Source of the DNA: a virus
Strand: one strand, 5' to 3'
Virus record (IMG/VR): IMGVR_UViG_3300035070_003059
Coordinates: 1-49,018 of that record
DNA: 49,018 nucleotides
The position numbers and the translations under genes were made by a program. Under the pieces are notes generated by a model. The model did not search any database and was not told the origin of the DNA. It saw only the letters and a list, made by a program, of their open reading frames with translations. Positions 8,265 through 42,237 of the stretch are shown one piece after another. Each line of letters begins with the position of its first letter. Position 1 is the first letter of the stretch.

Positions 8265-8449
8265 GCTGGTTCCTTTGTTATCTTTATGCGTTCATCGGCC
8301 GCTTCAATAAACTTTTGCAATAAATTATGTAATCGTGCGTAGTCTCGTTTGCTTATGCCCGAATATTCGGGCATAACATGATTTAGAACAGCTTGCGCGG
8401 CTCGGAATTTCGCCTTGTTACATACGTTGATATATTCAACCTCTGTCAT
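8261..8449 (-). CDS. Small hypothetical protein downstream of MuF
   Basis: A 62-residue basic helical protein (MTEVEYINVCNKAKFRAAQA start). Its start overlaps the MuF stop by four bases, and its stop overlaps the next gene likewise, so it belongs to a translationally coupled trio. Unknown function. Confidence 0.5.
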   Translation of the reverse strand: MTEVEYINVCNKAKFRAAQAVLNHVMPEYSGISKRDYARLHNLLQKFIEAADERIKITKEPA

Positions 8450-10407
8450 TGCGCCGGTTCCTTTTCCTTTTTAACCTGGCTATCCCGCCGTTCCTTCTCC
8501 GCCTCTATCTGGTCATCTAGCGGCGTTGGTATCGTGCCGATTTCGGGATGCACCGTGTAATGGCGGCAGCGGCAGTTATGGACAAATACTGTACTGCTGA
8601 TGTATAATTCATCAAACGTTTGGAGGTCATAAACATGTCCAGTAAACTCGAATTTTCTAATGCTGACAACCTGTCTAGGCTCTATCAATCCGGCAAATCG
8701 ATCAAAGATATTGCGGATATTTTCGGAGTTTCCCCAATCACCGTCAGACGGCGAATGATTAAGTGGGGGATACCAATCAGGAGTCACAAGGAATCCCAAA
8801 AGGTCAGATGGGACAATGCGCCGGAATCTGCCAAAAAAATAATGGCTGATGTTGCCAAGAGCAATAAAATATTTATCCCAAATCTTGACTTTATTATTGA
8901 ACGATATATCGCTGGCGAGTCCGAATTTAGACTTGCCAAAGAGATTGGAGTTTCTCGCGCCGCGCTCCGATCTCGTTTCGTTGAACGTGGCGTGACCATC
9001 AGAAACGGAAGCGATGCCAACAGGGAGAGAATGAAGCGGCTCTCTCCCGAAGATCGTAAGGAACTTGCTAAGGCGGCGCACGATAAAATTCGCGGCTCTA
9101 AGCGTAGCAAGGCTGAGTTGATCCGTCGGGCCGTCAAAAGGCAGGAAACGCTTCAATACCAATCCGAAGCGGAAAAAGTTCTCATTCAACTTCTTAGAGA
9201 CAGGGGGGTATTGGGGATCGTGCCACAAAAGGCTATCGGGCCATACAATATCGACATTGCCATCGAGGGACAATCCATCGCCGTGGAAGTCATGGGGCAT
9301 AGCCGAGCGAGACAGGCTCCGACTCTTAGCGGATACAAAAAGAGAACGCCATACCTCCTCGATCTTGGTTGGGATGTGATAATTGTACGGGTCGATGGCA
9401 CTCGCTATTTCTTGACCGAAGCGGCTGCTGATTACATAGTCTCCCACATTCAAGAGTCCAGCGGCAATAAATCCGCGCGGGGTCAATACCGGGTGATTAG
9501 GGGTAATGGTGAGCTTGTGGCCGTTAGATATGGTCAACTCGAATACTGGACCTGAGTAATGAGAGCGGCTTGCCGCCATTAGTTTTGGTGCGAAAACCTC
9601 ATTGTCTGGCAATATACAATTAATCGTATTCTTTGCGCTGCCTGCCGGGTCTCGCGGGAATGCCAGCTCCTCCCCGCCTACGGTGAACTTATCATTGACC
9701 CCTACGATCTGACCATGTGCCGACAGGTGAGCATTGCGCGTCCTAAAATCGCCCGTACTCATCCACGCCTTTTGCAGCTCTGGAAACTCTTGCAGGCTGG
9801 TTTCCATCTGCGACTGCGTGGCCACGCTAAAGGCGCGGTTGGTTTCCGTCCGTACTATCGTCTCCGCCCTTGACGCAATGCCGCCCACAATCTTGCGCCC
9901 ACCTTGCACCCCTAAGATGTCTGTGACTTTTTGCATGGCTTGATACGGCGTCAGCGCACCCAGGCCCACGCGCCCGATCTCGCTGCTTATCAGCTTGATA
10001 ACGTCGCCTGTAAGCCCTTTGATGAGGTCGGCGCTGTAATCCATCAGTACATTGATTTGCGCCACGCTGGAGCGGAAAAACGCGCCTTCTATGCTGGCTG
10101 CTATCAACGGCTCGACCACCATCTCGACGCCATCGGTTACGGCCGTTTGCAATGCGCCGTTCTGCATGGTGACGAGTTGACGGCGTAGCGTCTCGGTCTG
10201 GTTTTCGATGTTGGCTTTAATTTCACCCAGGGCGAATGAGGCAAAATAACTATCATCCGGCACGCTGGACAGGTAGCCGATAACGTCCCGGCGGTACTGT
10301 TCAAGGAAGGCCACCATCTGCTTGACGGTGGCTTCTTCCATCGTTTCAAACCGCTTTATGACGCGGTTCATTGCGGCGGCATACTGCCGTTGTTTAGCTG
10401 TTGCCAT
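8446..10407 (-). CDS. MuF-type phage head morphogenesis protein interrupted by an intein
   Basis: A 653-residue precursor. Residues 1-263 and 612-653 form a MuF-type minor head protein (N-terminal helices, then RAETIVRTETNRAF and GDFRTRNAHLSAHGQIVG, ending at the NCRC motif), which is built into the head near the portal. Residues 264-611 are an intein with Cys264 as first residue, a block B with the TPNH signature, a block F (GHVYDLQTFDELYIS) and a terminal VFVHN, followed by Cys612. Splicing would give a 305-residue MuF with an intact N-CRCRH junction. The gene overlaps the portal gene by 14 bases. The middle of the intein is antisense to a nuclease gene. Confidence 0.9.
   Translation of the reverse strand: MATAKQRQYAAAMNRVIKRFETMEEATVKQMVAFLEQYRRDVIGYLSSVPDDSYFASFALGEIKANIENQTETLRRQLVTMQNGALQTAVTDGVEMVVEPLIAASIEGAFFRSSVAQINVLMDYSADLIKGLTGDVIKLISSEIGRVGLGALTPYQAMQKVTDILGVQGGRKIVGGIASRAETIVRTETNRAFSVATQSQMETSLQEFPELQKAWMSTGDFRTRNAHLSAHGQIVGVNDKFTVGGEELAFPRDPAGSAKNTINCILPDNEVFAPKLMAASRSHYSGPVFELTISNGHKLTITPNHPVLTPRGFIAAGLLNVGDYVISSRFGQEIASAIDPYNYHIPTKIEEVWRSLFVSAKSRSLSRSAMPHDFHGDGLSLDGNVDIVWPDSLLWHDPQYPPVSKKLNENFFRFGLVLKRFLPFDGPTDQLSLATLRAANFIVRRLSKFLTIFGREPLHSLPVGIASVSDGHATFNETRSERGARNSNLFGKSKFGLASDISFNNKVKIWDKYFIALGNISHYFFGRFRRIVPSDLLGFLVTPDWYPPLNHSPSDGDWGNSENIRNIFDRFAGLIEPRQVVSIRKFEFTGHVYDLQTFDELYISSTVFVHNCRCRHYTVHPEIGTIPTPLDDQIEAEKERRDSQVKKEKEPAQ
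8579..8635 (+). promoter_or_regulatory. Promoter and RBS of the antisense nuclease gene
   Basis: TGGACA (8579-8584), an 18-base spacer and TATAAT (8603-8608) form a near-consensus sigma70 promoter. It lies entirely inside the last 34 bases or so of the intein coding sequence (opposite strand). The predicted start near 8615 falls in a perfect palindrome CAAACGTTTG (8613-8622), followed by GGAGG (8622-8626) and the ATG at 8635. The palindrome could be an autoregulatory operator. Confidence 0.7.
8635..9555 (+). CDS. Antisense-encoded homing endonuclease candidate (HTH-HTH-Vsr/DUF559-like nuclease)
   Basis: A 306-residue protein encoded wholly inside the intein DNA, on the other strand. HTH1 is near residues 20-50 (KDIADIFGVSPITVRRR); HTH2 is near 85-123 (FRLAKEIGVSRAALRSRF). 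A C-terminal PD-(D/E)XK core follows: SEAEKVLIQLL, Asp207 in NIDIAIEG, Glu218 in IAVEVMGHS, then LDLGWDVIIVRVD. This is the pattern of Vsr/DUF559-type nucleases, a fold also used by EDxHD homing enzymes. The start is the ATG at 8635, with GGAGG 8 bases upstream and a TATAAT further up. The precise family is inference; two-strand coding over 307 codons plus initiation signals argues against chance. Confidence 0.85.
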   Translation: MSSKLEFSNADNLSRLYQSGKSIKDIADIFGVSPITVRRRMIKWGIPIRSHKESQKVRWDNAPESAKKIMADVAKSNKIFIPNLDFIIERYIAGESEFRLAKEIGVSRAALRSRFVERGVTIRNGSDANRERMKRLSPEDRKELAKAAHDKIRGSKRSKAELIRRAVKRQETLQYQSEAEKVLIQLLRDRGVLGIVPQKAIGPYNIDIAIEGQSIAVEVMGHSRARQAPTLSGYKKRTPYLLDLGWDVIIVRVDGTRYFLTEAAADYIVSHIQESSGNKSARGQYRVIRGNGELVAVRYGQLEYWT

Positions 10408-22798: not shown

Positions 22799-23046
22799 CA
22801 CCCACCCCTCCAAAACTGACGTGCTTTATCTAAAAACTTTTTCTTTTTATATCCATGAGCGCCAGCGTGGCACGATTCGCACAACAGCTTGAGGTTGCCG
22901 TCGTCAAAGGTTCCACCATCGCTAACCTCAACAATATGGTGAAGTTCGACGTATCCTGTATACCCGCACGATTCACAGCGATTTCCGCGCTGCTTTATAG
23001 TTCGTTTTCTAGCCAGCTGCTGTGATGCTTGGTTTCTGTTTGCCAT
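22798..23046 (-). CDS. HNH endonuclease
   Basis: An 82-residue protein. CESCGYTGYVELHHIVEV, later NLKLLCESCHAGAHG, is a compact zinc-containing HNH motif (C-x2-C, then HH, N and C-x2-C). AAAGGG lies 10 bases upstream of the ATG. It could serve in packaging or be a free-standing homing enzyme. It has its own promoter and a structured leader with a T-tract (23079-23247), unlike its operon neighbours. Its stop overlaps the initiator start (TGATG). Confidence 0.85.
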   Translation of the reverse strand: MANRNQASQQLARKRTIKQRGNRCESCGYTGYVELHHIVEVSDGGTFDDGNLKLLCESCHAGAHGYKKKKFLDKARQFWRGG

Positions 23047-23067
23047 GTCGTCGTACCCTTTGGAACC

Positions 23068-23213
23068 TTGCGAAACGCAAAAATCCCACCATTTACCTTG
23101 TGATTGTCTAGGTCACATCAGCGCGGACGCTGCCAGTAAATGGTGGGATCATTACCCACAAAGTATTTAATTGGCGGAACAAAAAATCCGCGCAATTGAT
23201 GTAACCTAGACAA
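23068..23213 (-). promoter_or_regulatory. Pseudoknot-type leader with T-tract before the HNH gene
   Basis: Read on the minus strand: X (23213-23197), Y (23149-23136), X' (23120-23104), Y' (23096-23083), then TTTTT. X/X' match 16 of 17 and the stem extends by 7 more pairs (23193-23187 with 23127-23121). Y/Y' match 14 of 14. X-Y-X'-Y' is interleaved, so the two stems form a pseudoknot or are alternatives. Y/Y' plus T5 is a terminator. A small hairpin TTGCG/CGCAA (23068-23080) follows. Confidence 0.65.
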
Positions 23214-23218
23214 GAGAC

Positions 23219-23247
23219 AGTATAAACGATCTCGCCCATTAAATCAA
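23219..23247 (-). promoter_or_regulatory. Promoter of the HNH cassette
   Basis: Minus strand: TTGATT (23247-23242), 17 bases, TATACT (23224-23219). Transcription would begin near 23212, at the very start of the structured leader, overlapping the end of the upstream methyltransferase gene. Confidence 0.6.
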
Positions 23248-23750
23248 CCCCCATCCTGTCCATAAATCGTCGTGTACATCGGGCCGCGATAGTTGCGCTG
23301 GAAATGGATAGCGCCAATGGCAAAGCCTATGGGGAAACCTAGCCTAGACCCTGGTCCGTAAATCCGCATATGGTTTATCCCTCCCCACTTGCTAACCTTT
23401 AGCATCATGCCGTAAGAGATGAACGGCTTGTCTGCTGGAAACAAAAGGCAAATATTCTTTGCGAACTGCAAGCTGTGATGTATCCATTTTGCATAACTTT
23501 TGTACGGCGGATTACCAAAAACCCAATCTACCGGCTCGGTCCACTTGAAAAAATCGCGCCCTTCTTGAATCTCGCACCATTCGGTATGCGGCGGTAGGTA
23601 CTTGAGGAAAACGCCGTCACCCTTGCACGGTTCCAGGATGCGCCCCGATGGCTTGAAAAATTCCACCATGTCACGGGCTACCCAATCGGGCGTATAAACC
23701 ACGTCGCCAGGGTCAAGCGGGATTTGTAATAGTTGCGGTTGGATGCTCAT
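23244..23750 (-). CDS. Small adenine-specific DNA methyltransferase-like protein
   Basis: A 168-residue protein. An SAM-binding motif-I-like segment (GRILEPCKGDGVFLKYL) is followed by the catalytic NPPY. This is the order of gamma-class N6-adenine enzymes, but at about 168 residues it lacks a large target-recognition domain. The start overlaps the primase stop (TGATG). It is probably a second orphan phage methylase, or a relic. Confidence 0.75.
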   Translation of the reverse strand: MSIQPQLLQIPLDPGDVVYTPDWVARDMVEFFKPSGRILEPCKGDGVFLKYLPPHTEWCEIQEGRDFFKWTEPVDWVFGNPPYKSYAKWIHHSLQFAKNICLLFPADKPFISYGMMLKVSKWGGINHMRIYGPGSRLGFPIGFAIGAIHFQRNYRGPMYTTIYGQDGG

Positions 23751-24718
23751 CAGTTCACCTTCGCTGAGTGCTGGATATACCCGTTAAACATTTGGGCATC
23801 AAACCCGTACTCAACAAACAAATCATCTGCTTTCGCTGGAAGCTGAACCAACCGCGCCCGCTCCCGTCCTACCAGCTCCACCAGCCTATCAACCGCCGCC
23901 GGTAGAATCTTGCCATCCCGCGCCTTCGTGGGCGTATAGGCGTCAGGGTCCAGACAGATGTACACCGGATCGCAATCTGCCAAGATGGTCAGCATATCCG
24001 CGCCAGGTGTTTTGCTTGGCACGGCCACAACGGAGAAACGGCCGTTGCCACTGGCCACCGTGTTGATGAACGTCACCGCCGCCTTTTTCATGCCCTCCAT
24101 GAGGAGCGCCGCGCCGTTGGGCTTTTCGTCCGGGTCTGCCAGCCATGCGCCCGCCTTTAGCCCTGCCTGAAATCTGTACTTGTCGTTTGGTGCTGGTGGG
24201 TTTGTGAGCCTGTACTGTATCGTTGTCGCTTCCCAGCCAGGCGAAAAGTAAGGGATCGTCATGCTGGGGCTTGTAAAGTCTCGCCCCTGGTATTCTGTGA
24301 ATCCGAGCTGCCAGAAGTCTTGCATACTATCAGGGATACCCGCCTGCCGCCACAATGCCCGGTGCCCTTCTTTCATTGCGTCATGATACCCGCGCCAATA
24401 CTCGTTTTTGCGTAGCTCCTGAATGTACCCGCGTAGGCGGTCATTCTCTGCCTTTAGCATGGCCTCGCGTAGGTTGCGGGCCTGCTCTATTTTTACCGGG
24501 TCTGGCCGCTGGTTGTCGTTGGCATCTGCCCACTCAAAATGTGAACATTGACGGCACCACGCGCGGGCGTTCCCTTTGGCATCGGCGGCAAATAGTCTGA
24601 ACCTATCTTCTCCGCCACAAACTACGCAGGCGCTAGACCATTCGCCGCTGCCGCGATACTTCAAATTTGGCAACGTTGCAAAGCGTGATAGTTCTTGCGG
24701 TAACGGTAAATTATTCAT
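23750..24718 (-). CDS. Primase with zinc-binding and TOPRIM domains
   Basis: A 322-residue protein. The N-terminal zinc ribbon uses Cys31, Cys34, Cys55 and Cys58. The middle has a linker helix. A TOPRIM-like C-terminal part shows ALLMEGMKKAAVTF (Glu), then YICLDPDAY (DxD) and a late KADD. It makes primers for phage DNA synthesis together with the DnaB-like helicase in the same operon. Confidence 0.8.
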   Translation of the reverse strand: MNNLPLPQELSRFATLPNLKYRGSGEWSSACVVCGGEDRFRLFAADAKGNARAWCRQCSHFEWADANDNQRPDPVKIEQARNLREAMLKAENDRLRGYIQELRKNEYWRGYHDAMKEGHRALWRQAGIPDSMQDFWQLGFTEYQGRDFTSPSMTIPYFSPGWEATTIQYRLTNPPAPNDKYRFQAGLKAGAWLADPDEKPNGAALLMEGMKKAAVTFINTVASGNGRFSVVAVPSKTPGADMLTILADCDPVYICLDPDAYTPTKARDGKILPAAVDRLVELVGRERARLVQLPAKADDLFVEYGFDAQMFNGYIQHSAKVN

Positions 24719-25076
24719 CTCTGCGGCTCCTCATGTGGCCATGCTGGCAAGTGCGATCTGTCCACCACGTGCCCATTACCCTGACGCGCCGCACGAATAT
24801 CATTAGCAGTTCACCGCACGTCTGGCAAAACTCGTGAACGATGCTAAATTCTTTGCCGTGGGCTTCATCGTGGCAACGGCGGCATAACGATTCTAAATCG
24901 CTCATGCGCTCGTGGCCGAATCTTTCATATGTTTTGTGATGTACATCTAGTGGTTTGTTTTTTGCACTACACCCCTGGCAGGTGTAGTTGTCTTTTTCAA
25001 GTCTGGCCCGGCGCTTTTTGTCCCAGGCCTCAGAGTTCATGTATTCGGTGTATTCGTCAGTGAGATGTGTCATCAT
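24711..25076 (-). CDS. HNH endonuclease with C-terminal zinc ribbon
   Basis: A 121-residue protein. The HNH core is CQGCSAKNKPLDVHHKTYER, then LESLCRRCHDEAHG. A C-terminal CQTC ... CQHG segment could bind a second zinc. AGGGGGA sits just upstream; the ATG one codon earlier (25079) is also possible. It is located before the primase. A homing or packaging-type nuclease is likely. Confidence 0.8.
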   Translation of the reverse strand: MMTHLTDEYTEYMNSEAWDKKRRARLEKDNYTCQGCSAKNKPLDVHHKTYERFGHERMSDLESLCRRCHDEAHGKEFSIVHEFCQTCGELLMIFVRRVRVMGTWWTDRTCQHGHMRSRRDE

Positions 25077-25081
25077 TCCCC

Positions 25082-25300
25082 CTAATACGGCAATCCCTGC
25101 GCCTGCTGCCGTTCCAGCAGGTTGACGGCCGTTTGCAGGCCGTCGATACGGGCGCGCGTTTCTGCCCATCTCCCCGTGCGTTTTAGGGTCGTGCTGTAGT
25201 CACCGCGATCACGTGCGCGGTGCGCTACGTCTAAATGGTGCGCGGCGATTCGTTCCGCCGTTTCAATCTTCGCCCGTAATGCTGCTATCGTTTCGTCCAT
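25082..25300 (-). CDS. Small coiled-coil protein
   Basis: A 72-residue, Ala/Arg-rich helical protein (MDETIAALRAKIETAERIAA start). Its stop lies just before the HNH gene. No function is recognised. Confidence 0.55.
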   Translation of the reverse strand: MDETIAALRAKIETAERIAAHHLDVAHRARDRGDYSTTLKRTGRWAETRARIDGLQTAVNLLERQQAQGLPY

Positions 25301-25319
25301 GTCAATTCTCCATTGGAAT

Positions 25320-25352
25320 AAAAAAAACCGCTGCTATCTACTGGCTAATAGC
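25320..25352 (-). terminator. Terminator after the HTH-nuclease gene
   Basis: Minus strand: a GCTAT / ATAGC hairpin overlapping the stop codon of the nuclease gene, five more bases, then eight T (25327-25320). The stem is short, so termination may be partial. It marks the downstream edge of the AT-rich cassette. Confidence 0.5.
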
Positions 25353-26026
25353 CAATAGGCATTATGGTATTTTAGATATTTACTAATTTCTGGGCGCTTT
25401 GTCGGATAACAAAATTGAATCTTTTGCACATGTTCTGGAATAATAATTGAAGGTATGACAAAAACATCTTTATTACCAGTAATGCAGAAGTAATAATCAC
25501 AATCTCGCCTTTTATCCACACCTATATGAAATTTCCATTGAGGGGAGATCAAGCGCCCATCAAGAGAGGGTGCAATCTTTTTTGATAAACCAGCCTTTAC
25601 ATCAACACGGTTTCCATCAACAAGTAAATCAAATGGGTGATTATAGGGCATCGCCCTAACGTCAAACCCCATAGTTTCTAAGTGAGCTATGGCCCAATTC
25701 TCCCATTTTGTTCCAACCTTTCTGCTATTGTTTGGCTTGCCATCAACCTTATATCTTTGCCCAGCCCGTATTTTGCCAACCGTTCTGATAGCTAAGTTCA
25801 ATTTATTAGCCAGCTGGCTGTTGGTAAGGAGTGGATTGCCCCGAATATAATTGTGCAAGTCCTCAGTTTTCTTGTAATTCTCTAGCCAACCAGTATTACC
25901 TATAACCTTCCAAACAGATTGTTTAGTGATACCATATTTATCACCAATCTCTTGCAGGGTTAGCCCATGTTCCCTCAGCGCTATCATGTCTCGCTTTCTT
26001 TCTTCTCTCTGTTTTTTGCTTGCCAT
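25334..26026 (-). CDS. HTH plus PD-(D/E)XK nuclease, probable free-standing homing endonuclease
   Basis: A 230-residue protein. HTH-like segments are near residues 20-45 (LTLQEIGDKYGITKQSVWKV) and 66-90 (LLTNSQLANKLNLAIRTVGK). The nuclease core has Glu109 (KWENWAIAHLETMG), Asp133 (HPFDLLVDG) and VDVK with Lys144: an E...D...D-x-K set. The gene is visibly more AT-rich than its neighbours, suggesting recent transfer. The start at 26026 avoids the longer frame that runs back into the leader hairpin. It has its own promoter and structured leader. Confidence 0.8.
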   Translation of the reverse strand: MASKKQREERKRDMIALREHGLTLQEIGDKYGITKQSVWKVIGNTGWLENYKKTEDLHNYIRGNPLLTNSQLANKLNLAIRTVGKIRAGQRYKVDGKPNNSRKVGTKWENWAIAHLETMGFDVRAMPYNHPFDLLVDGNRVDVKAGLSKKIAPSLDGRLISPQWKFHIGVDKRRDCDYYFCITGNKDVFVIPSIIIPEHVQKIQFCYPTKRPEISKYLKYHNAYWLLASR

Positions 26027-26033
26027 AAGATAC

Positions 26034-26161
26034 AAAAAAACTCCTAAACTTTGACTAAGTGGTTTGTGGCTTGAGTGGGGTATTGCGCAAATATGGCAGA
26101 TGCGCCTACATCCAACAAACCACCTAGTCAAAGGCTAGGAGCCTGATTACCGCCACTCAAG
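26034..26161 (-). promoter_or_regulatory. Pseudoknot-type leader with T7 before the HTH-nuclease gene
   Basis: Minus strand order: A (26161-26153, CTTGAGTGG), B (26141-26116), A' (26078-26070), B' (26066-26041), then seven T (26040-26034), 7 bases before the ATG. A/A' match 9 of 9; B/B' match 23 of 26. The pairs interleave, as in the HNH leader. B/B' plus T7 is a strong intrinsic terminator, so the gene is off unless the terminator is bypassed or melted. Confidence 0.7.
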
Positions 26162-26191
26162 TCTTTCATGTAGTCTATGAGGCGCTGCCAT
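26147..26191 (-). CDS. Possible 14-residue leader peptide
   Basis: A mini-frame MAAPHRLHERLEWR with GAGG just before the ATG (26191) and a stop at 26147. It covers the first repeat (A) of the leader, so ribosomes on it could affect A-A' pairing. Spacing to the ribosome site is short, so this is only a candidate. Confidence 0.25.
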   Translation of the reverse strand: MAAPHRLHERLEWR

Positions 26192-26215
26192 TCACCTCAA
26201 AAACATTGTTCCTAA

Positions 26216-26244
26216 AGTATAATGATTCTCTACCCAAATGTCAA
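26216..26244 (-). promoter_or_regulatory. Promoter of the HTH-nuclease cassette
   Basis: Minus strand: TTGACA (26244-26239), 17 bases, TATACT (26221-26216). Near-perfect sigma70 promoter just downstream of the 26272-26511 gene. Transcription would start near 26209. Confidence 0.75.
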
Positions 26245-26271
26245 AACTTTTTTTACAGCAGCGGCAGCTGC

Positions 26272-26511
26272 TTACCCAATGCTTCCGGGCCAGCGGTGGT
26301 TTTGCCGTTCGCTTGTTTCAATCATCCACTCATCGCCGCCGTAATCCGGCTCATCTTTGCTGCGTCGCACCCATATGGCATACAGCCCGCAGCCTGGGCA
26401 CTGAATCTGCTTATGACGACGGCTTTTCTGCAATGCCCACTCGTGCCATTGTAAATAGCCTGGAGGGGATGGCGTGTGCTTTGCCTCGTTGGGGCATGTG
26501 CTTTTACTCAT
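26272..26511 (-). CDS. Small zinc-binding protein
   Basis: A 79-residue protein. QCPGCGLYAIWVRR gives one C-x2-C knuckle and an N-terminal Cys/His pair may complete a zinc site. The C-terminus is acidic then polar. It is one of several small Cys-rich early proteins. Function unknown. Confidence 0.55.
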   Translation of the reverse strand: MSKSTCPNEAKHTPSPPGYLQWHEWALQKSRRHKQIQCPGCGLYAIWVRRSKDEPDYGGDEWMIETSERQNHRWPGSIG

Positions 26512-26513
26512 GT

Positions 26514-26654
26514 CTATTTCCCTTGCCGCATCAGCGCGGCGATAAATTCCAACTCGTCCGGCTCCCCCAACCCGTCATCCGCTGGCAGCGCCCCGACCTG
26601 GTAGTCGCGAGCGTATACCCGCACGTTGCCAACAATGTATTTGTCGTCGCTCAT
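26514..26654 (-). CDS. 46-residue acidic protein
   Basis: A short frame (MSDDKYIVGNVRVYARDYQV start) whose ATG overlaps the upstream stop as ATGA. It is about 25% acidic. It is probably co-translated with the 169-residue gene. No motif. Confidence 0.5.
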   Translation of the reverse strand: MSDDKYIVGNVRVYARDYQVGALPADDGLGEPDELEFIAALMRQGK

Positions 26655-27160
26655 TGCGTTGCCTCATTCTTGGCCTGATGAGCCAACTCGCATAATCGAT
26701 TAAACAGTTCTTGGTCCAGCCTTTCTCTCGCCACATCCATAAAGTAGTTAGCAAAGGCACGCTGGCGCGCCCTGGAGCGCTTGTCGGATAGCTTTCTTCT
26801 GGACAGTTCGGTTTTTACGGCCGCGAATTTGGCGTTGTACTCCGCCTGCTCTTTCAGCAGCGCCGTGAATTCTTTAGGGGGTAGGTAAATACCATTATGG
26901 GCATTTGCTTTTGCCGCCAAAACGGCCGCTCGGATTTCGCCGATAATCACCTCCAGTTCTTGCTGCAGCTCCGATAGCGCATCACGGGAAATTATCGGAT
27001 CGCTAAAAAACAATCGCAGATCCCGCGCTGGCTTTGCGGCCAACTCCGCGCCGGTGGGTAGGCTGCGCAGTTGGTGACGCTCGCGCCACCGCTCCATTCT
27101 GTCGTCTAGTTCACGCGCCCACCGGCGCGATGATTCGGAAACAAGTACAGTTACAGACAT
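26651..27160 (-). CDS. Charged helical hypothetical protein
   Basis: A 169-residue, Arg/Glu-rich, mostly helical protein (MSVTVLVSESSRRWARELDD start) with probable coiled-coil stretches. The start at 27160 lies within the end of the previous gene; the longer frame upstream is a shadow. It could be a nucleic-acid-associated early protein. Confidence 0.5.
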   Translation of the reverse strand: MSVTVLVSESSRRWARELDDRMERWRERHQLRSLPTGAELAAKPARDLRLFFSDPIISRDALSELQQELEVIIGEIRAAVLAAKANAHNGIYLPPKEFTALLKEQAEYNAKFAAVKTELSRRKLSDKRSRARQRAFANYFMDVARERLDQELFNRLCELAHQAKNEATQ

Positions 27161-27339
27161 AAAAACCTCACAACAAACTCGCCTGCACCAGCTCGCGCCA
27201 GAACAGGGCCTTTGTAATCGCGGGCGTTGTACTGCACGCCGTTGATGGTCACAGCGGAAGGGTAACGGCCGTTGACGTAGAATGAATAGCCGCCAAAGTC
27301 TTTTACAACTTGTGGAAGCTGTGGGGGTGTCGTGCTCAT
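27151..27339 (-). CDS. Small beta-type protein
   Basis: A 62-residue protein (MSTTPPQLPQVVKDFGGYSF start) with alternating strands (FYVNGRYPSAVTINGVQY). It overlaps the upstream gene by four bases. It looks like a small barrel or KTSC-like fold. Not assigned. Confidence 0.5.
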   Translation of the reverse strand: MSTTPPQLPQVVKDFGGYSFYVNGRYPSAVTINGVQYNARDYKGPVLARAGAGEFVVRFLCL

Positions 27340-27884
27340 TCGCTGTCGTCCAGTTCAAACATCATTGGCAAACGGCCGTCACCGTGCGCCCATTTTTGGT
27401 AATCGCTTAGGTGGTCTGCGCATAAATAGCTGTGATGGCTCCCACTGTCATCCATTGTCTGAACCTCCCAAAGTGCCGCGTGTTCGCAGCACCCAGGGCC
27501 GGAGCCGTCGCCTTCACAATCCACTGGTTCTCCGCTGTAAACTCGCGCCACAGTAGTTATTCGCAGCTTTCTTACCATCTCGCGCAATTGGGCATTTTCC
27601 GAGTAAAAAGCGTCCGCCTGCTTGGTCATCAGGTGGAGGTTGTACAACGCTTCCGCCAGTTCGTCGGCGAGGCTGTCACGTTCATCGCGCAGCAGATAAT
27701 ACGCTGTCGATTCGGCTTGAAGTTGTTGCTTGAGGCGGGCGTTTTCGGCGCGGAGCTTGCTATTTTCTACCAATTGCCGCGCAGCAAGCCCTGTGTTTAT
27801 GCGTGCCTCTTCTAGCGCGTCAGCCAATTGTTCTTCTAGTCCCTCAATCGTCAATGCTTGTATATCGTGTTCACTGTCCATCAC
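27336..27884 (-). CDS. Long coiled-coil protein with Cys/His-rich C-terminus
   Basis: A 182-residue protein. A coiled coil covers about residues 12-105 (leucine heptads such as LRAENARLKQQLQAES). The C-terminal 70 residues contain Cys and His (CEGDGSGPGCCEH; HHSYLCADHL) able to bind zinc. An adaptor-like early protein is likely. Confidence 0.55.
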   Translation of the reverse strand: MMDSEHDIQALTIEGLEEQLADALEEARINTGLAARQLVENSKLRAENARLKQQLQAESTAYYLLRDERDSLADELAEALYNLHLMTKQADAFYSENAQLREMVRKLRITTVARVYSGEPVDCEGDGSGPGCCEHAALWEVQTMDDSGSHHSYLCADHLSDYQKWAHGDGRLPMMFELDDSE

Positions 27885-28088
27885 TCACCATCCTTTGCCG
27901 TTAACGGCCGTGTCCGCCGGGGCGGGGGTTAGTTGCTGCTCATAATCCGCAATGATAAGGTTCTTCACGTACTCGCTCATGTTTGGTTGCTCTGCCACAA
28001 ACTCTTTAAGCACTGGCGGTAGCTTGACCATCAAAATATCCGTGCTTTTTTCTGTCGCCAATCGTTTGTAAAATTCAAGTTCGTTCAT
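27885..28088 (-). CDS. Ribbon-helix-helix-like protein
   Basis: A 67-residue protein. DILMVKLPPVLKEFVAEQ, then MSEYVKNLIIADYEQQL, matches the strand-helix-helix pattern of Arc/CopG-type regulators. It abuts the coiled-coil gene. Possibly a transcription regulator of the early region. Confidence 0.5.
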   Translation of the reverse strand: MNELEFYKRLATEKSTDILMVKLPPVLKEFVAEQPNMSEYVKNLIIADYEQQLTPAPADTAVNGKGW

Positions 28089-28185
28089 AATGGTTTTTGC
28101 CTTGTATGGGGGGTTAAACTACCTTTTGATAATAGCCGTTACAATCTGCAATCATAAACGGCACGTTTTGCCTCGGGGTCGTTGG

Positions 28186-28437
28186 TCATTTTTTCTCTGG
28201 TTTCTGCTGTAGCTTTAATTCGCTAGGGCGTACGGGAAACCAATACGAATCTTTGAATAAGTGAATAAATCTTCCATAAAAAGAATCGTCTTTTGCAAAC
28301 CCAAAGATTACAAGATTTTCAAACTTTACCCCGTATTCGTTGGTAAACGTCACAACATCACCAACCTTAAAGCCGCATTCTACTGGCGGAGTTTTTTGAC
28401 AATGATTTTCGATAAATTTTTCTATTGCTGCTTCCAT
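28186..28437 (-). CDS. Small SH3-like hypothetical protein
   Basis: An 83-residue protein. FKVGDVVTFTNEYGVKFENLVIFGF suggests a small beta barrel. The end is basic (QQKPEKK). Its stop overlaps a further 16-codon frame in the following spacer, which is too short to call. Function unknown. Confidence 0.5.
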   Translation of the reverse strand: MEAAIEKFIENHCQKTPPVECGFKVGDVVTFTNEYGVKFENLVIFGFAKDDSFYGRFIHLFKDSYWFPVRPSELKLQQKPEKK

Positions 28438-28489
28438 TAGAGGTTTCCTTTGCCGGATATTGTGACCCTTCGGCGAGGGTTAAGATTGA

Positions 28490-28651
28490 TTAATTCAGTT
28501 CTTTAATTCTGCCCGTCATTTTGCAAAGGCTAAAAACCAAATCGGCTTGTCCATGTTCGCTGTTATTGTGAAGCTTTGTTAGCAATTCAAGAGTTTCTTT
28601 GTCTGTCTGGTAAGCCTTGCCGTTTAATTCAAAAGTTTTATCTAGTTTCAT
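28490..28651 (-). CDS. 53-residue hypothetical protein
   Basis: A short gene (MKLDKTFELNGKAYQTDKET start), with GGGGAAAC upstream of the ATG at 28651 and the stop at 28490. It is the first gene after the promoter at 28697-28724. Lysine-rich and helical; no motif. Confidence 0.55.
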   Translation of the reverse strand: MKLDKTFELNGKAYQTDKETLELLTKLHNNSEHGQADLVFSLCKMTGRIKELN

Positions 28652-28696
28652 TATGTTTCCCCTTGTGTCTCTGTTTGTGCTTGCCTTATGAAGATA

Positions 28697-28724
28697 AGTT
28701 TAACAGAGTCAATACTATTGTCAA
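28697..28724 (-). promoter_or_regulatory. Early promoter
   Basis: Minus strand: TTGACA (28724-28719), 16 bases, TAAACT (28702-28697), following the terminator at 28761-28786. It contains a direct repeat TATTGAC spaced by 12 bases that could be a regulator site. It would serve the 28651 gene and the operon below it. Confidence 0.5.
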
Positions 28725-28760
28725 TACCTAATCTATAGAAAGCGGGTACTAATTCGCAAC

Positions 28761-28786
28761 AAAAAAGCCGCCTGGTTAGGGCGGCT
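28761..28786 (-). terminator. Intrinsic terminator
   Basis: Minus strand: AGCCGCC / GGCGGCT stem (28786-28780 with 28772-28766) followed by a run of six T. It closes the short operon ending at 28815. Confidence 0.8.
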
Positions 28787-28814
28787 CTATTGGCGCTGTT
28801 GGCTGGCTCAAAGG

Positions 28815-29015
28815 TCACAGAGCGGCATCCGCGCCGTGTTCTACGCCTAAATGCTCCGCCAACTTGTCTAACGCAACTAGTGCTGTGCTGTTGTCAATCT
28901 GCCAGCTCAGTTCAGTTGTGCCAGCGTTCGGGTCGTCGATGGCAATGCAGCCATGATCGGCGCTTAACGCCTCGCCGATGGTGTCAATCAATTGTTTTAG
29001 TTGTTTTTTTGTCAT
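28815..29015 (-). CDS. Hypothetical protein
   Basis: A 66-residue protein (MTKKQLKQLIDTIGEALSAD start), acidic in the middle. It overlaps the 68-residue gene by four bases and is followed by a terminator. Unknown function. Confidence 0.55.
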   Translation of the reverse strand: MTKKQLKQLIDTIGEALSADHGCIAIDDPNAGTTELSWQIDNSTALVALDKLAEHLGVEHGADAAL

Positions 29016-29218
29016 TTTAGATAATCCTCTCTAATTGGTTTGTTGATAGAAGGTTGCCCCACAAAGCCGTATGATTTTAGGTGCCACCAATAGCAGATGG
29101 GGCACTCGTAATACTCGTGATAAACGCCTGTTTGTTTCGTGCGCCGCCTTTTTGCTTTTTGCGCCTGGTTGCGCGTGTAGCGTTTTTTGCTGGCGCAGGT
29201 GGTTATAGGGTCGGTCAT
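29012..29218 (-). CDS. Small basic zinc-finger-like protein
   Basis: A 68-residue protein. Basic N-terminal helices (KRYTRNQAQKAKRRRTKQ) are followed by YYECPICYWWHL, a C-x2-C...H knuckle. Similar small proteins lie next to RusA genes in other phages. Probably binds DNA. Confidence 0.6.
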   Translation of the reverse strand: MTDPITTCASKKRYTRNQAQKAKRRRTKQTGVYHEYYECPICYWWHLKSYGFVGQPSINKPIREDYLK

Positions 29219-29625
29219 ACGGCCACCACCTCGATCTCCACCCGTGGACGCTTGTTGTCCTTGCAGCTTTCCACCCGTACGGCCGTCACGTATTGCGGGC
29301 TGTCATCTTCAATCAGCCAGCCAATAAGCGCATCCTCATACGGCTTAATGCACACGTTGGAACAATCCTGCGCATTGCCCTTGAAAAACGCTCTGACGCG
29401 AACCTCGACGGGCTGAGCGAACATCTGAACGTTTGGGTCAAGCTCCGCCCGTACCAGCATTTGCACCCGGTCCTTTTCGGCGCTGCGCTTCGACCAGTGC
29501 ATACCCGACCAGTACTTGTTCCACGAGAACGGCCGTTCCCCTTCCAGCACAATCAGCACCCGCCGGGGCGGGAGGGTCGCGGCGTAGGCGGGCCAGTCGT
29601 TGACGTTGATTGCTTTTAGTCTCAT
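29215..29625 (-). CDS. rusA: RusA-like Holliday junction resolvase
   Basis: A 136-residue protein. The RusA signature is clear: Asp87 (QDCSN), Lys94 and Asp98 (IKPYEDAL), then Asp107-Asp108 (IEDDSPQYV), preceded by a SWNKYWSGMHW-type segment. It resolves branched DNA before packaging. It overlaps the basic zinc protein by four bases. Confidence 0.85.
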   Translation of the reverse strand: MRLKAINVNDWPAYAATLPPRRVLIVLEGERPFSWNKYWSGMHWSKRSAEKDRVQMLVRAELDPNVQMFAQPVEVRVRAFFKGNAQDCSNVCIKPYEDALIGWLIEDDSPQYVTAVRVESCKDNKRPRVEIEVVAV

Positions 29626-29637
29626 GATGTCATCCTC

Positions 29638-29844
29638 CTAAAACGGCACCGGGCTTGTCGGCGGTGTCACGTGCCGTTCCGCCAGTTGGTGCCAATACGA
29701 CCGTTTGCTAACGTCGTTGGCGTTGAGGTCAACAACCGCGCCTTCAGGATGTCGCCACTTGCCGTCCGCTGTTGGTTGCCATCCCGCCGCCAGCATGTGT
29801 GACAGGAGTTGCCAAAGTTGCCACTTTTTACGCTCGATTAGCAC
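29638..29844 (-). CDS. Small hypothetical protein with GTG start
   Basis: A 68-residue protein (MLIERKKWQLWQLLSHMLAA start). GTG at 29844 is preceded by AAGGGG with 6-base spacing, a better start than upstream ATGs that would overlap more of the previous gene. Trp-rich helix; unknown role. Confidence 0.5.
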   Translation of the reverse strand: MLIERKKWQLWQLLSHMLAAGWQPTADGKWRHPEGAVVDLNANDVSKRSYWHQLAERHVTPPTSPVPF

Positions 29845-30112
29845 GTTCCACCCCTTGGCGCGTAGCCTCTGTCGTGAAGCCATACGGCGCAACGTAAACT
29901 GCCGTAAACGGCTTGCCTTGATATTCTGCCACTATTCCCCAGGTGCGCTTAAGCTCCCGCCGTGCGCGGCTGGCTATGCGGTTGTGGGTTTTTACGCATT
30001 GACGACACCAGCTCTTACGGCCGTTGCGCTTGGCGTGGTCTCTGTAGAATTTGGTGAATAGCTTTTTTGTTTTGCAGTGGGTGCATGTGATGAATTGCGT
30101 TGCTGTTGTCAT
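29828..30112 (-). CDS. Zinc-ribbon protein
   Basis: A 94-residue protein. CTHCKTKKLFTKFYRD, then CRQCVKTHN, forms a zinc ribbon seen in many phage endonuclease VII-adjacent proteins. The C-terminal half may be a small SH3-like domain. AGGAG lies 8 bases upstream of the ATG at 30112. Confidence 0.65.
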   Translation of the reverse strand: MTTATQFITCTHCKTKKLFTKFYRDHAKRNGRKSWCRQCVKTHNRIASRARRELKRTWGIVAEYQGKPFTAVYVAPYGFTTEATRQGVERANRA

Positions 30113-30128
30113 GTTCATCGCTCCTATG

Positions 30129-30239
30129 CTACTTTCGCCCGTGCGCCTGGTCGTTGCGTCCAGCCAATATCACCGCCGCCAGCACAATAATACCGGCAAC
30201 GATTACAATAATACCAAATCCGTAAATGCAGTATGTCAT
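30129..30239 (-). CDS. 36-residue membrane peptide
   Basis: A short frame (MTYCIYGFGIIVIVAG start) with one strongly hydrophobic helix and a basic end. AAAGGA lies 7 bases upstream of the ATG at 30239, with the stop at 30129. A small phage membrane protein, perhaps for superinfection exclusion or lysis timing. Confidence 0.55.
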   Translation of the reverse strand: MTYCIYGFGIIVIVAGIIVLAAVILAGRNDQAHGRK

Positions 30240-30545
30240 GATCGCATCCTTTAAGAGGATGGCAGCGTAGCCAGAGAAGAGTTGTGTATGTCGCGTTTTC
30301 TACCTTGGAGGGTCCTTGGAGGATGTAAAAAGGGGGGGAGGCTACGCTGCCATGAAAAAACGAGCCGCCGGGTTGTCTTTTGCCACAATCCCACTTTGAT
30401 ACCAGTAAAATACCCTGGCCCGCTGTTTCCGATGATAAGGTCCTGGGCGGCGGCAACCGCCTCTTGTGACCACCGGTAATCTGTTGGCTGGTCATGCTCT
30501 GACGATTACCGGATGCGGCACGCCGCCGCCCGTGCAAAACGGCCG
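30240..30545. other. Non-coding, highly structured region below the repressor
   Basis: No convincing gene in about 305 bases. Inverted repeats: a perfect 14-base pair (30259-30272 with 30340-30353), CCGGTAATC / GATTACCGG (about 30473-30481 with 30504-30512), and a GGCGG/CCGCC hairpin (30447-30462). Minus-strand GCCGCC ... GGCGGC followed by TTTTTT (30360-30355) may end a small RNA starting in or after the repressor gene. A candidate ncRNA or leader of the 30129-30239 peptide gene. Confidence 0.45.
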
Positions 30546-30791
30546 TTACCCCTCGTTTGGAGAGGCGGCCGGAATTGCTATTTCGTAAATATCGCCTAAA
30601 CGGATATTGCGCACCTCGTCAACTGCCCAGCCAGCAGCCAGCAACACGGAAGCAACCGTGTCTGGCTTGGGGGCATTGTACGCCAGAATGCCGCTTAGGG
30701 ATTGCGGAGAAACGCCCATTATCTGAGCAACTTCTTTTTGACTCTTGCCGCTCTTTAATATTTCTTGTTTTAGGAATAGTCTAGTATTCAT
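30546..30791 (-). CDS. CI-like helix-turn-helix repressor
   Basis: An 81-residue XRE-type protein: helix-turn-helix KSQKEVAQIMGVSPQSLSGI near residues 16-35. It faces the plus-strand early operon. The ATG at 30791 lies about 7 bases after a minus-strand -10 (TATCAT), so the mRNA is probably leaderless, as for lambda cI. It is short for a repressor and lacks a cleavable C-terminal domain. The likely operator is the palindrome at 30823-30838. Confidence 0.7.
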   Translation of the reverse strand: MNTRLFLKQEILKSGKSQKEVAQIMGVSPQSLSGILAYNAPKPDTVASVLLAAGWAVDEVRNIRLGDIYEIAIPAASPNEG

Positions 30792-41568: not shown

Positions 41569-42237
41569 CTATTGTCTCACAAGTGGTAAGTAGATAGGTT
41601 TTTGGCGTTGCAGCGATTGGTAAATCGTCTCGGCAATCAGCCGATGCCCCGCATCCGATGGATGAAAATTGTCACCCTCCCAATAGGGCGCAAATGGGGA
41701 AGGTGTCCCCGGCTGGCTTATGCAATCTGCACAATCCCGCGTGGCTGCCCATACGTCGGACAGAATGGCGCCGCTCTCGTTGGCAATGCTGGCTATGTGG
41801 CCGTTGTAATGCTCGTAGGTGGCATAGCTCTGGTGGCTGCTGGCAACCCCGTGAAACATCGTGGTAATGACCACCGTTGCCCCGGTTGCCTGAATATCCG
41901 CCACCAGGTCGGCGTAAACGGCCGACCAGGCGCTATCCGCGCTTTGTGGCGAACTGACATCATTCAGCCCCACCTCGATGACCACAATGTCCGGCTGCCA
42001 GGCTTGATACCGCTCCCAGCAGGCAACCACCTGGGCCAATTGCGGCCCGTAGCAACTGCCCAAATCAGCATTGAGCAAATCGGCCAAATGGTGCTTAAAT
42101 CCGTTCTGCTCGCTGGTGGCAAAGAGACCGACGGTCAAACTATCACCCACCACCAGCAGGCGCGGCCGTGCGGCGCTTTGTGCGGGTTGGCAAATGGTCA
42201 GCAACAGAATAATGAGCAGTGGCCAGAATTTACGCAT
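41569..42237 (-). CDS. Secreted SGNH/GDSL hydrolase
   Basis: A 222-residue protein. Signal peptide in residues 1-22 (FWPLLIILLLTICQPAQSA). Ser33 in GDSL, GLND at 90-93, and Asp189/His192 in DNFHPSD complete the SGNH catalytic set. It is probably an esterase or deacetylase acting on cell-surface sugar. The signal peptide is odd for a tail-operon gene and suggests that it is exported. It overlaps the end of the fibre gene. Confidence 0.85.
   Translation of the reverse strand: MRKFWPLLIILLLTICQPAQSAARPRLLVVGDSLTVGLFATSEQNGFKHHLADLLNADLGSCYGPQLAQVVACWERYQAWQPDIVVIEVGLNDVSSPQSADSAWSAVYADLVADIQATGATVVITTMFHGVASSHQSYATYEHYNGHIASIANESGAILSDVWAATRDCADCISQPGTPSPFAPYWEGDNFHPSDAGHRLIAETIYQSLQRQKPIYLPLVRQ

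Follow-up and report, generated by a model that had tools for sequence, protein, structure and literature searches.

Selfish nucleases carried by phages need silence followed by timely release. The reviewed cases come from T4-like phages, where, as far as the available parts of the published accounts go, endonuclease genes are controlled by hairpins that hide the ribosome-binding site (RBS) together with late promoters, and where terminators lie within the 5' coding region of mobE and of segF (PMC2988022; PMC3014915). For the T4-type homing endonucleases I-TevI, I-TevII, I-TevIII, segB and Aeh1 mobE, the review, so far as available, describes a stable stem that hides the nuclease RBS, a nuclease gene placed within a larger transcription unit and, for several, a private promoter (PMC2988022). 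Each of these features is also found at the phage locus described here. In the T4-type genes, the position of the late promoter prevents late RNA from forming the hairpin, whereas here the promoter lies upstream of both arms and its RNA does not escape the hairpin; a U7 terminator on the same stem, a leader ORF and a competing fold, all three found here, are not described for the T4-type genes in the available part of that review (PMC2988022). If the reading developed below is true, an unrelated phage has solved nuclease control with a leader that acts on transcription and translation together, and that may sense the state of translation.

Ribosome-mediated attenuators of the trp and his type combine a short leader ORF, an exclusive early fold, and a terminator stem with a U tract. 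The leader described here resembles them in its ORF with a Shine-Dalgarno (SD) match, its exclusive early fold, and its terminator and U tract before the gene. It departs from them in that the antiterminator and terminator of trp share a strand, whereas here the two helices, A:A' and B:B', interlock on different segments; in that trp/his leaders have a run of regulatory codons, of which there is none here; and in that the terminator stem here also hides the SD of the gene. A literature search on homing endonucleases with leader peptides, and on phage attenuation with a pseudoknot or antiterminator, returned no title suggesting the same arrangement.

Layout of the promoter, leader and nuclease gene

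The locus lies on the minus strand of a single IMG/VR virus record, IMGVR_UViG_3300035070_003059, analysed as one stretch of 49,018 nt that we call the window. Its features are collected in Table 1. The initial annotation had described a near-consensus private promoter, followed by interleaved repeats A-B-A'-B' and seven T only 7 bases before the nuclease ATG, and the sequence bears out both parts of that description. Promoter sites with at least 11 of 12 matches number five in the window, against a mean of 0.33 and a maximum of 2 in 60 Markov resamplings, and the minus strand has just one of them, at 26244-26216. Its TTGACA begins 27 bases past the stop of a small upstream gene on the same strand, and transcription would start at about 26209. 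The predicted RNA then runs through D, A, B, D', A', B' and seven U into the nuclease gene, with 7 bases between the T tract (26040-26034) and the ATG at 26026. This anatomy of promoter, leader and nuclease is real, and better than chance.

Table 1. Features of the nuclease locus, in order of transcription, followed by the block that contains them.
Feature	Positions	Strand	Description
Promoter	26216..26244	-	Private, sigma-70-type, TTGACA-17-TATACT; 11/12 consensus matches
Hairpin P1	26178..26199	-	5' arm holds the leader-ORF SD; loop ATGGCAG complementary to the PC loop
Segment D	26168-26191	-	Partner of D' (complementary blocks)
Leader ORF	26147..26191	-	14 codons, MAAPHRLHERLEWR and stop; GAGGTGA (26198-26192) directly before
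Segment A	26148..26161	-	9 pairs, bulge and 4 pairs with A'; spans the leader-ORF stop and the codons just before it
Segment B	26115..26141	-	5' arm of the terminator-like stem; alternatively in local hairpin PB (26145-26116)
Segment D'	26093..26111	-	In and around hairpin PC; third interleaved pair with D, suggestive only
Segment A'	26070..26082	-	3' arm of the alternative (read-through) fold
Segment B'	26041..26067	-	3' arm of the terminator-like stem; ends in AGGAG (26045-26041), the nuclease SD
Seven T	26034..26040	-	Terminator U tract, and spacer between SD and start
Nuclease gene	25334..26035	-	TTG start at 26035 or ATG at 26026 (230 aa, P0001)
Low-GC block	25301..26271	-	About 40% against 54-55% in flanking genes; probable acquired cassette, ends approximate

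Inverted repeats are also what an origin, an operator or another protein-binding site would present as DNA. The neighbourhood holds replication-type genes, such as a primase-like gene at 23750-24718 (PHROG match), and the HTH domains of the nuclease could bind such repeats. However, promoter, SD, ORF, stem and T tract all run in one direction, and positions 25900-26400 contain no direct repeats, so that an element of this kind in a replication module is very unlikely. A type III toxin-antitoxin system was considered and dropped, there being no tandem repeats in the leader (direct repeats, 0).

Two competing folds of the leader

Folding and repeat analysis agree that B:B' is by far the strongest feature of the leader. 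Its 27 positions, counted by hand, comprise 24 Watson-Crick pairs, 2 G-U pairs and 1 mismatch, so that the earlier figure of 23 pairs in 26 is corrected to 26 paired positions in 27; the helix runs for 19 uninterrupted pairs plus 7 more. The folding energy of the 175-nt leader is -65.3 kcal/mol; shuffled sequences average -44.7 +/- 4.0 kcal/mol (z -5.2), and none of 200 did as well. The stem stops at 26041 and the T tract begins at the next base, as in an intrinsic terminator. A consensus terminator scan, which looks for short loops, omits B:B' because its loop is 47 nt long, and this loop may weaken termination. The initial assignment of B:B' is retained, as a terminator-like stem, with that caveat.

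The same stem contains the nuclease SD. AGGAG, at the foot of the B' arm, lies 5 nt before an in-frame TTG at 26035, while no SD stands at normal spacing before the ATG at 26026; in the fold, the unpaired probability of the SD is at most 0.04. Because this SD belongs to the B' arm, the terminator hairpin should also block translation of any read-through RNA. The earlier suggestion that the nuclease is held nearly silent is strengthened, as its only good SD is in the B' arm and A overlies a leader ORF with a long SD match.

RNase III cleavage activates translation in some phage leaders. A helix of 19 uninterrupted pairs followed by 7 is long enough for the host enzyme, and the SD stands at the stem foot, where cutting the 26-pair stem would free it and activate translation. 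Such a cleavage site would need neither A:A' nor the leader ORF nor the U7, and we regard it as highly improbable.

A second fold precedes the terminator. A (26161-26153) and A' (26078-26070) form 9 perfect pairs, which continue past a one-base bulge for 4 more pairs, to 26148/26082, and total 13. In a transcript that has reached A' but not yet B', the most stable structure has A:A' closing local hairpins (-50.0 kcal/mol; z -3.1), and 3 of 500 shuffles do as well; the claim that A:A' competes with B:B' is upheld computationally. Once B' is finished, the terminator fold has an advantage of about 15 kcal/mol over the pre-B' fold. A nested path from one to the other crosses a barrier of about 22 kcal/mol, which is an upper bound in that pseudoknotted routes lie outside the model; the true barrier should be lower, because the PB loop CCTTTGA can pair directly with B'. 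Over an identical 126 nt, mutually exclusive folds, one of them a terminator, have energies of -32.9 versus -43.8 kcal/mol. By computation, then, the leader has two good, competing folds.

How far A:A' exceeds chance depends on the measure. Among 5000 shuffles made without B and B', 1.2% gave a helix of at least 9 pairs (5' part with loop) and 0.16% gave at least four helices of at least 6 pairs, while by duplex energy 49 of 2000 shuffles were as strong as A:A', a weaker significance than by pair counts. D:D' was set aside as a third interleaved pair, since 246 of 2000 shuffles had duplexes as strong. The spacers are short, 6 nt from extended A to B and 2 nt from A' to B', and by this geometry the full A:A' and full B:B' helices are probably mutually exclusive; the pseudoknot of the initial annotation, taken as a stable joint structure, is doubtful for that reason.

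With B:B' so dominant and A:A' only moderately beyond chance by duplex energy, a simpler account may suffice, in which B:B' is a constitutive terminator and an RBS-hiding hairpin, allows only a trickle of the selfish nuclease and insulates its gene against phage transcription arriving from upstream, and A:A' and the leader ORF are incidental. T4 offers precedents that fit this account, to the extent that the partly available review covers them: terminators within the 5' coding regions of mobE and segF, and hairpins that hide the RBS of several endonuclease genes (PMC2988022). It would leave as coincidence a pre-B' fold that beats 497 of 500 shuffles and the overlap of A with the end of a leader ORF that has a strong SD match, and a private promoter firing solely into a terminator would need some other purpose. 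We consider this a possible but somewhat doubtful explanation.

The leader ORF and a proposed attenuation mechanism

The possible 14-residue leader peptide over A, pointed out in the initial annotation, corresponds to an ORF whose SD match, GAGGTGA, is 7 nt long. By comparison, 37 minus-strand phage gene starts, hand-chosen from a program-made ORF list, have matches of 0 to 6 nt, and the probability of an ORF with an SD match of at least 7 nt was 0.004 in shuffles. As in ribosome-mediated attenuators, an ORF with an SD overlaps the first pairing segment, and it ends inside A. Three Arg and two His occur among its 14 residues, with no run of a single amino acid; two of the Arg codons are AGA, which makes up 9% of Arg codons in the phage (a post hoc remark). 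Only a short spacer separates the leader SD from its ATG, and hairpin P1, of up to -13.4 kcal/mol, contains that SD. Because P1 may hide it, efficient translation of the leader is doubtful, and the ribosome is uncertain as the sensor. A second short ORF lies in a different frame at 26169-26128 on the minus strand (13 codons, ATG at 26169); it runs partly over the leader ORF, stops within B and lacks an SD match.

Our leading interpretation, held tentatively and with rather less than even confidence, is that the leader is an attenuator on a homing-type nuclease cassette that the phage acquired along with a private promoter. In the OFF state, B:B' would form and RNA polymerase would halt at the U tract, and in any RNA that read through the stem would still sequester the nuclease SD. 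In the ON state, A:A' would form ahead of B' synthesis, with B kept in the local hairpin PB, so that B' and its SD would be left free, and both transcription and translation could continue. The choice would be made during RNA synthesis. The likeliest sensor would be a ribosome on the 14-codon leader ORF, which at the leader stop would cover A and favour OFF; a ribosome stalled early, or absent, would leave A free and favour ON.

Several observations argue for such an attenuator: the strong B:B' stem with U7, the pre-B' fold at -50.0 kcal/mol with its nested barrier of about 22 kcal/mol, the buried AGGAG, the 7-nt leader SD, and a low-GC block that spans leader and gene. T4 homing endonuclease genes provide precedents for both RBS-hiding hairpins and terminators, within the available part of the review (PMC2988022). 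Against it, a strong terminator at this position would also silence the downstream replication-type genes, the leader peptide lacks a single-amino-acid run, the B:B' loop is long, and neither seven related nuclease loci nor any search produced a relative of the leader (see below). The more specific joint claim of an attenuator with pseudoknot topology, in which translation of the leader chooses between interlocked helices without a common strand, the terminator helix governs both transcription and translation of the mobile nuclease, and the nuclease is released only if leader translation falters during infection, is rather unlikely as a whole. A nuclease switch is a reasonable prediction from this single sequence.

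The nuclease, its relatives and the probable acquired cassette

P0001 has matches to HTH_23 (residues 6-42) and HTH_24 (56-83), both above Pfam cut-offs, followed at 130-144 by a PD-(D/E)XK-like core of the form HPFD...VDVK; the core reads HPFDLLVDGNRVDVK. D133, D142 and K144 are invariant in all six aligned rows. Structure prediction gave a low-quality model (mean pLDDT 45.6), although its order of helices and strands fits a PD-(D/E)XK core. Pfam PDDEXK_5 matches a relative, at only 0.053. P0001 matches PHROG 28936 (8.3e-7) and PHROG 12058, both of unknown function, and shares with the phage nucleases of PHROG 28936 a core of the form HP(F/Y)D...D(V/I)K. A profile search of solved structures with the nuclease gave no match, and neither did PADLOC.

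Relatives are few. Seven loci were found (L002, L095, L096, L097, L098, L099 and L100), not counting L003, which matched in the HTH part only; L095 is a Bacillus plasmid copy, and L095, L097 and L099 encode the same protein as far as read. No relative was found in genome contigs. L002 is 51% identical to P0001 over 50 residues. In the other six, unlike P0001 with its leader, the nuclease gene either overlaps its upstream neighbour or starts at most about 50 nt after it. The upstream neighbour in L096 is SSB by Pfam, and by eye the upstream genes of the others seem to encode SSB-like acidic tails, which would put most of these nucleases behind an SSB gene. L002 has a promoter match directly before the gene and a strong upstream fold (z -3.6), and was rejected as an instance of the same arrangement because its best-placed promoter match comes after its hairpin. 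A human gut phage record (L100:1287-3047) has its related nuclease flanked on one side by a gene whose product has an SSB-like tail and on the other by an ERCC4-type-like nuclease, as judged by eye.

The leader is absent from all seven of these loci, the relatives being distant, and it did not appear elsewhere. BLASTN of 22800-30700 against phages gave no match; the cassette gave only chance pieces of 28-33 bases against plasmids, and, in a set of 50 records or genomes that carry related terminases (47 of 80 kept viral loci and 3 MAGs), the leader gave four matches of 14-21 bases that we attribute to chance. Two exact-pattern scans of viral contigs returned 28 and 3 matches, none of which beat its own shuffled-flank control, with one tie. 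Covariance model R1, for which the one leader stretch was entered twice, recovered nothing but the window, on both strands, from 74 sources among which the window was counted, and no second copy there; it found nothing in 198 genomes of one phylum, chosen from a MAG with a related terminase and so perhaps not the phylum of the host. In everything searched, the leader is an orphan, and the switch is predicted from this one example. From the initial interpretation, then, the promoter, the terminator-like B:B', the competing A:A' and the leader ORF stand; a stable pseudoknot is doubtful, and conservation of the interleaved pairs, the check proposed there, found no support among the distant relatives and the collections searched. 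The word CCTAGNNTTTGACTAGG, from the hairpin, occurs in 28 viral-contig stretches (L111-L138), several of which have it in terminator-like hairpins that recur in related records.

Small RNAs such as the phage P4 or P1 c4 immunity RNAs act in trans, and a complete transcription unit from promoter to terminator, with interleaved complementary blocks D-A-B-D'-A'-B', might be an independent gene for an RNA of about 175 nt with the nuclease merely downstream. The lack of a second copy in the window counts against this, as does Rfam: nothing in the window reaches a gathering score, and a search relaxed to E 10 yields just six sub-threshold matches, all to miRNA, snoRNA and lncRNA families and none credible. 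The nuclease SD moreover lies within the 3' arm of the supposed RNA, whose low GC is the same as that of the nuclease. An independent small RNA is improbable.

Composition favours the acquisition that the attenuator reading assumes. The nuclease has 39.5% G+C and the leader 41.5%, while the flanking stretches have 55.5% and 53.8%; because leader and nuclease form one low-GC block, they are probably a single acquired cassette. The nuclease was not found in the 50 records or genomes with related terminases, in a search without a positive control, nor in four further records, and the ten loci that have the upstream flanking gene hold no further neighbour in common, which leaves no empty insertion site to be read. 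The same gene cluster contains a second low-GC stretch, at 28000-28750 (37-39%).

Elsewhere in the window, the MuF-like head gene at 8446-10407 (minus strand) contains an intein (Pfam Intein_splicing, residues 268-611). Inside it, on the opposite strand, is an ORF at 8635-9555 (plus strand) for an HTH and MTES_1575/DUF559-like nuclease, with its own promoter match, TGGACA-18-TATAAT (8579-8608), and an SD. Such a combination of intein and antisense nuclease seems unusual. A GDSL-like protein, recognized by eye at 41569-42237 (minus strand), ends in IYLPLVRQ, a tail known from exported proteins of Chloroflexota and a possible hint to the host.
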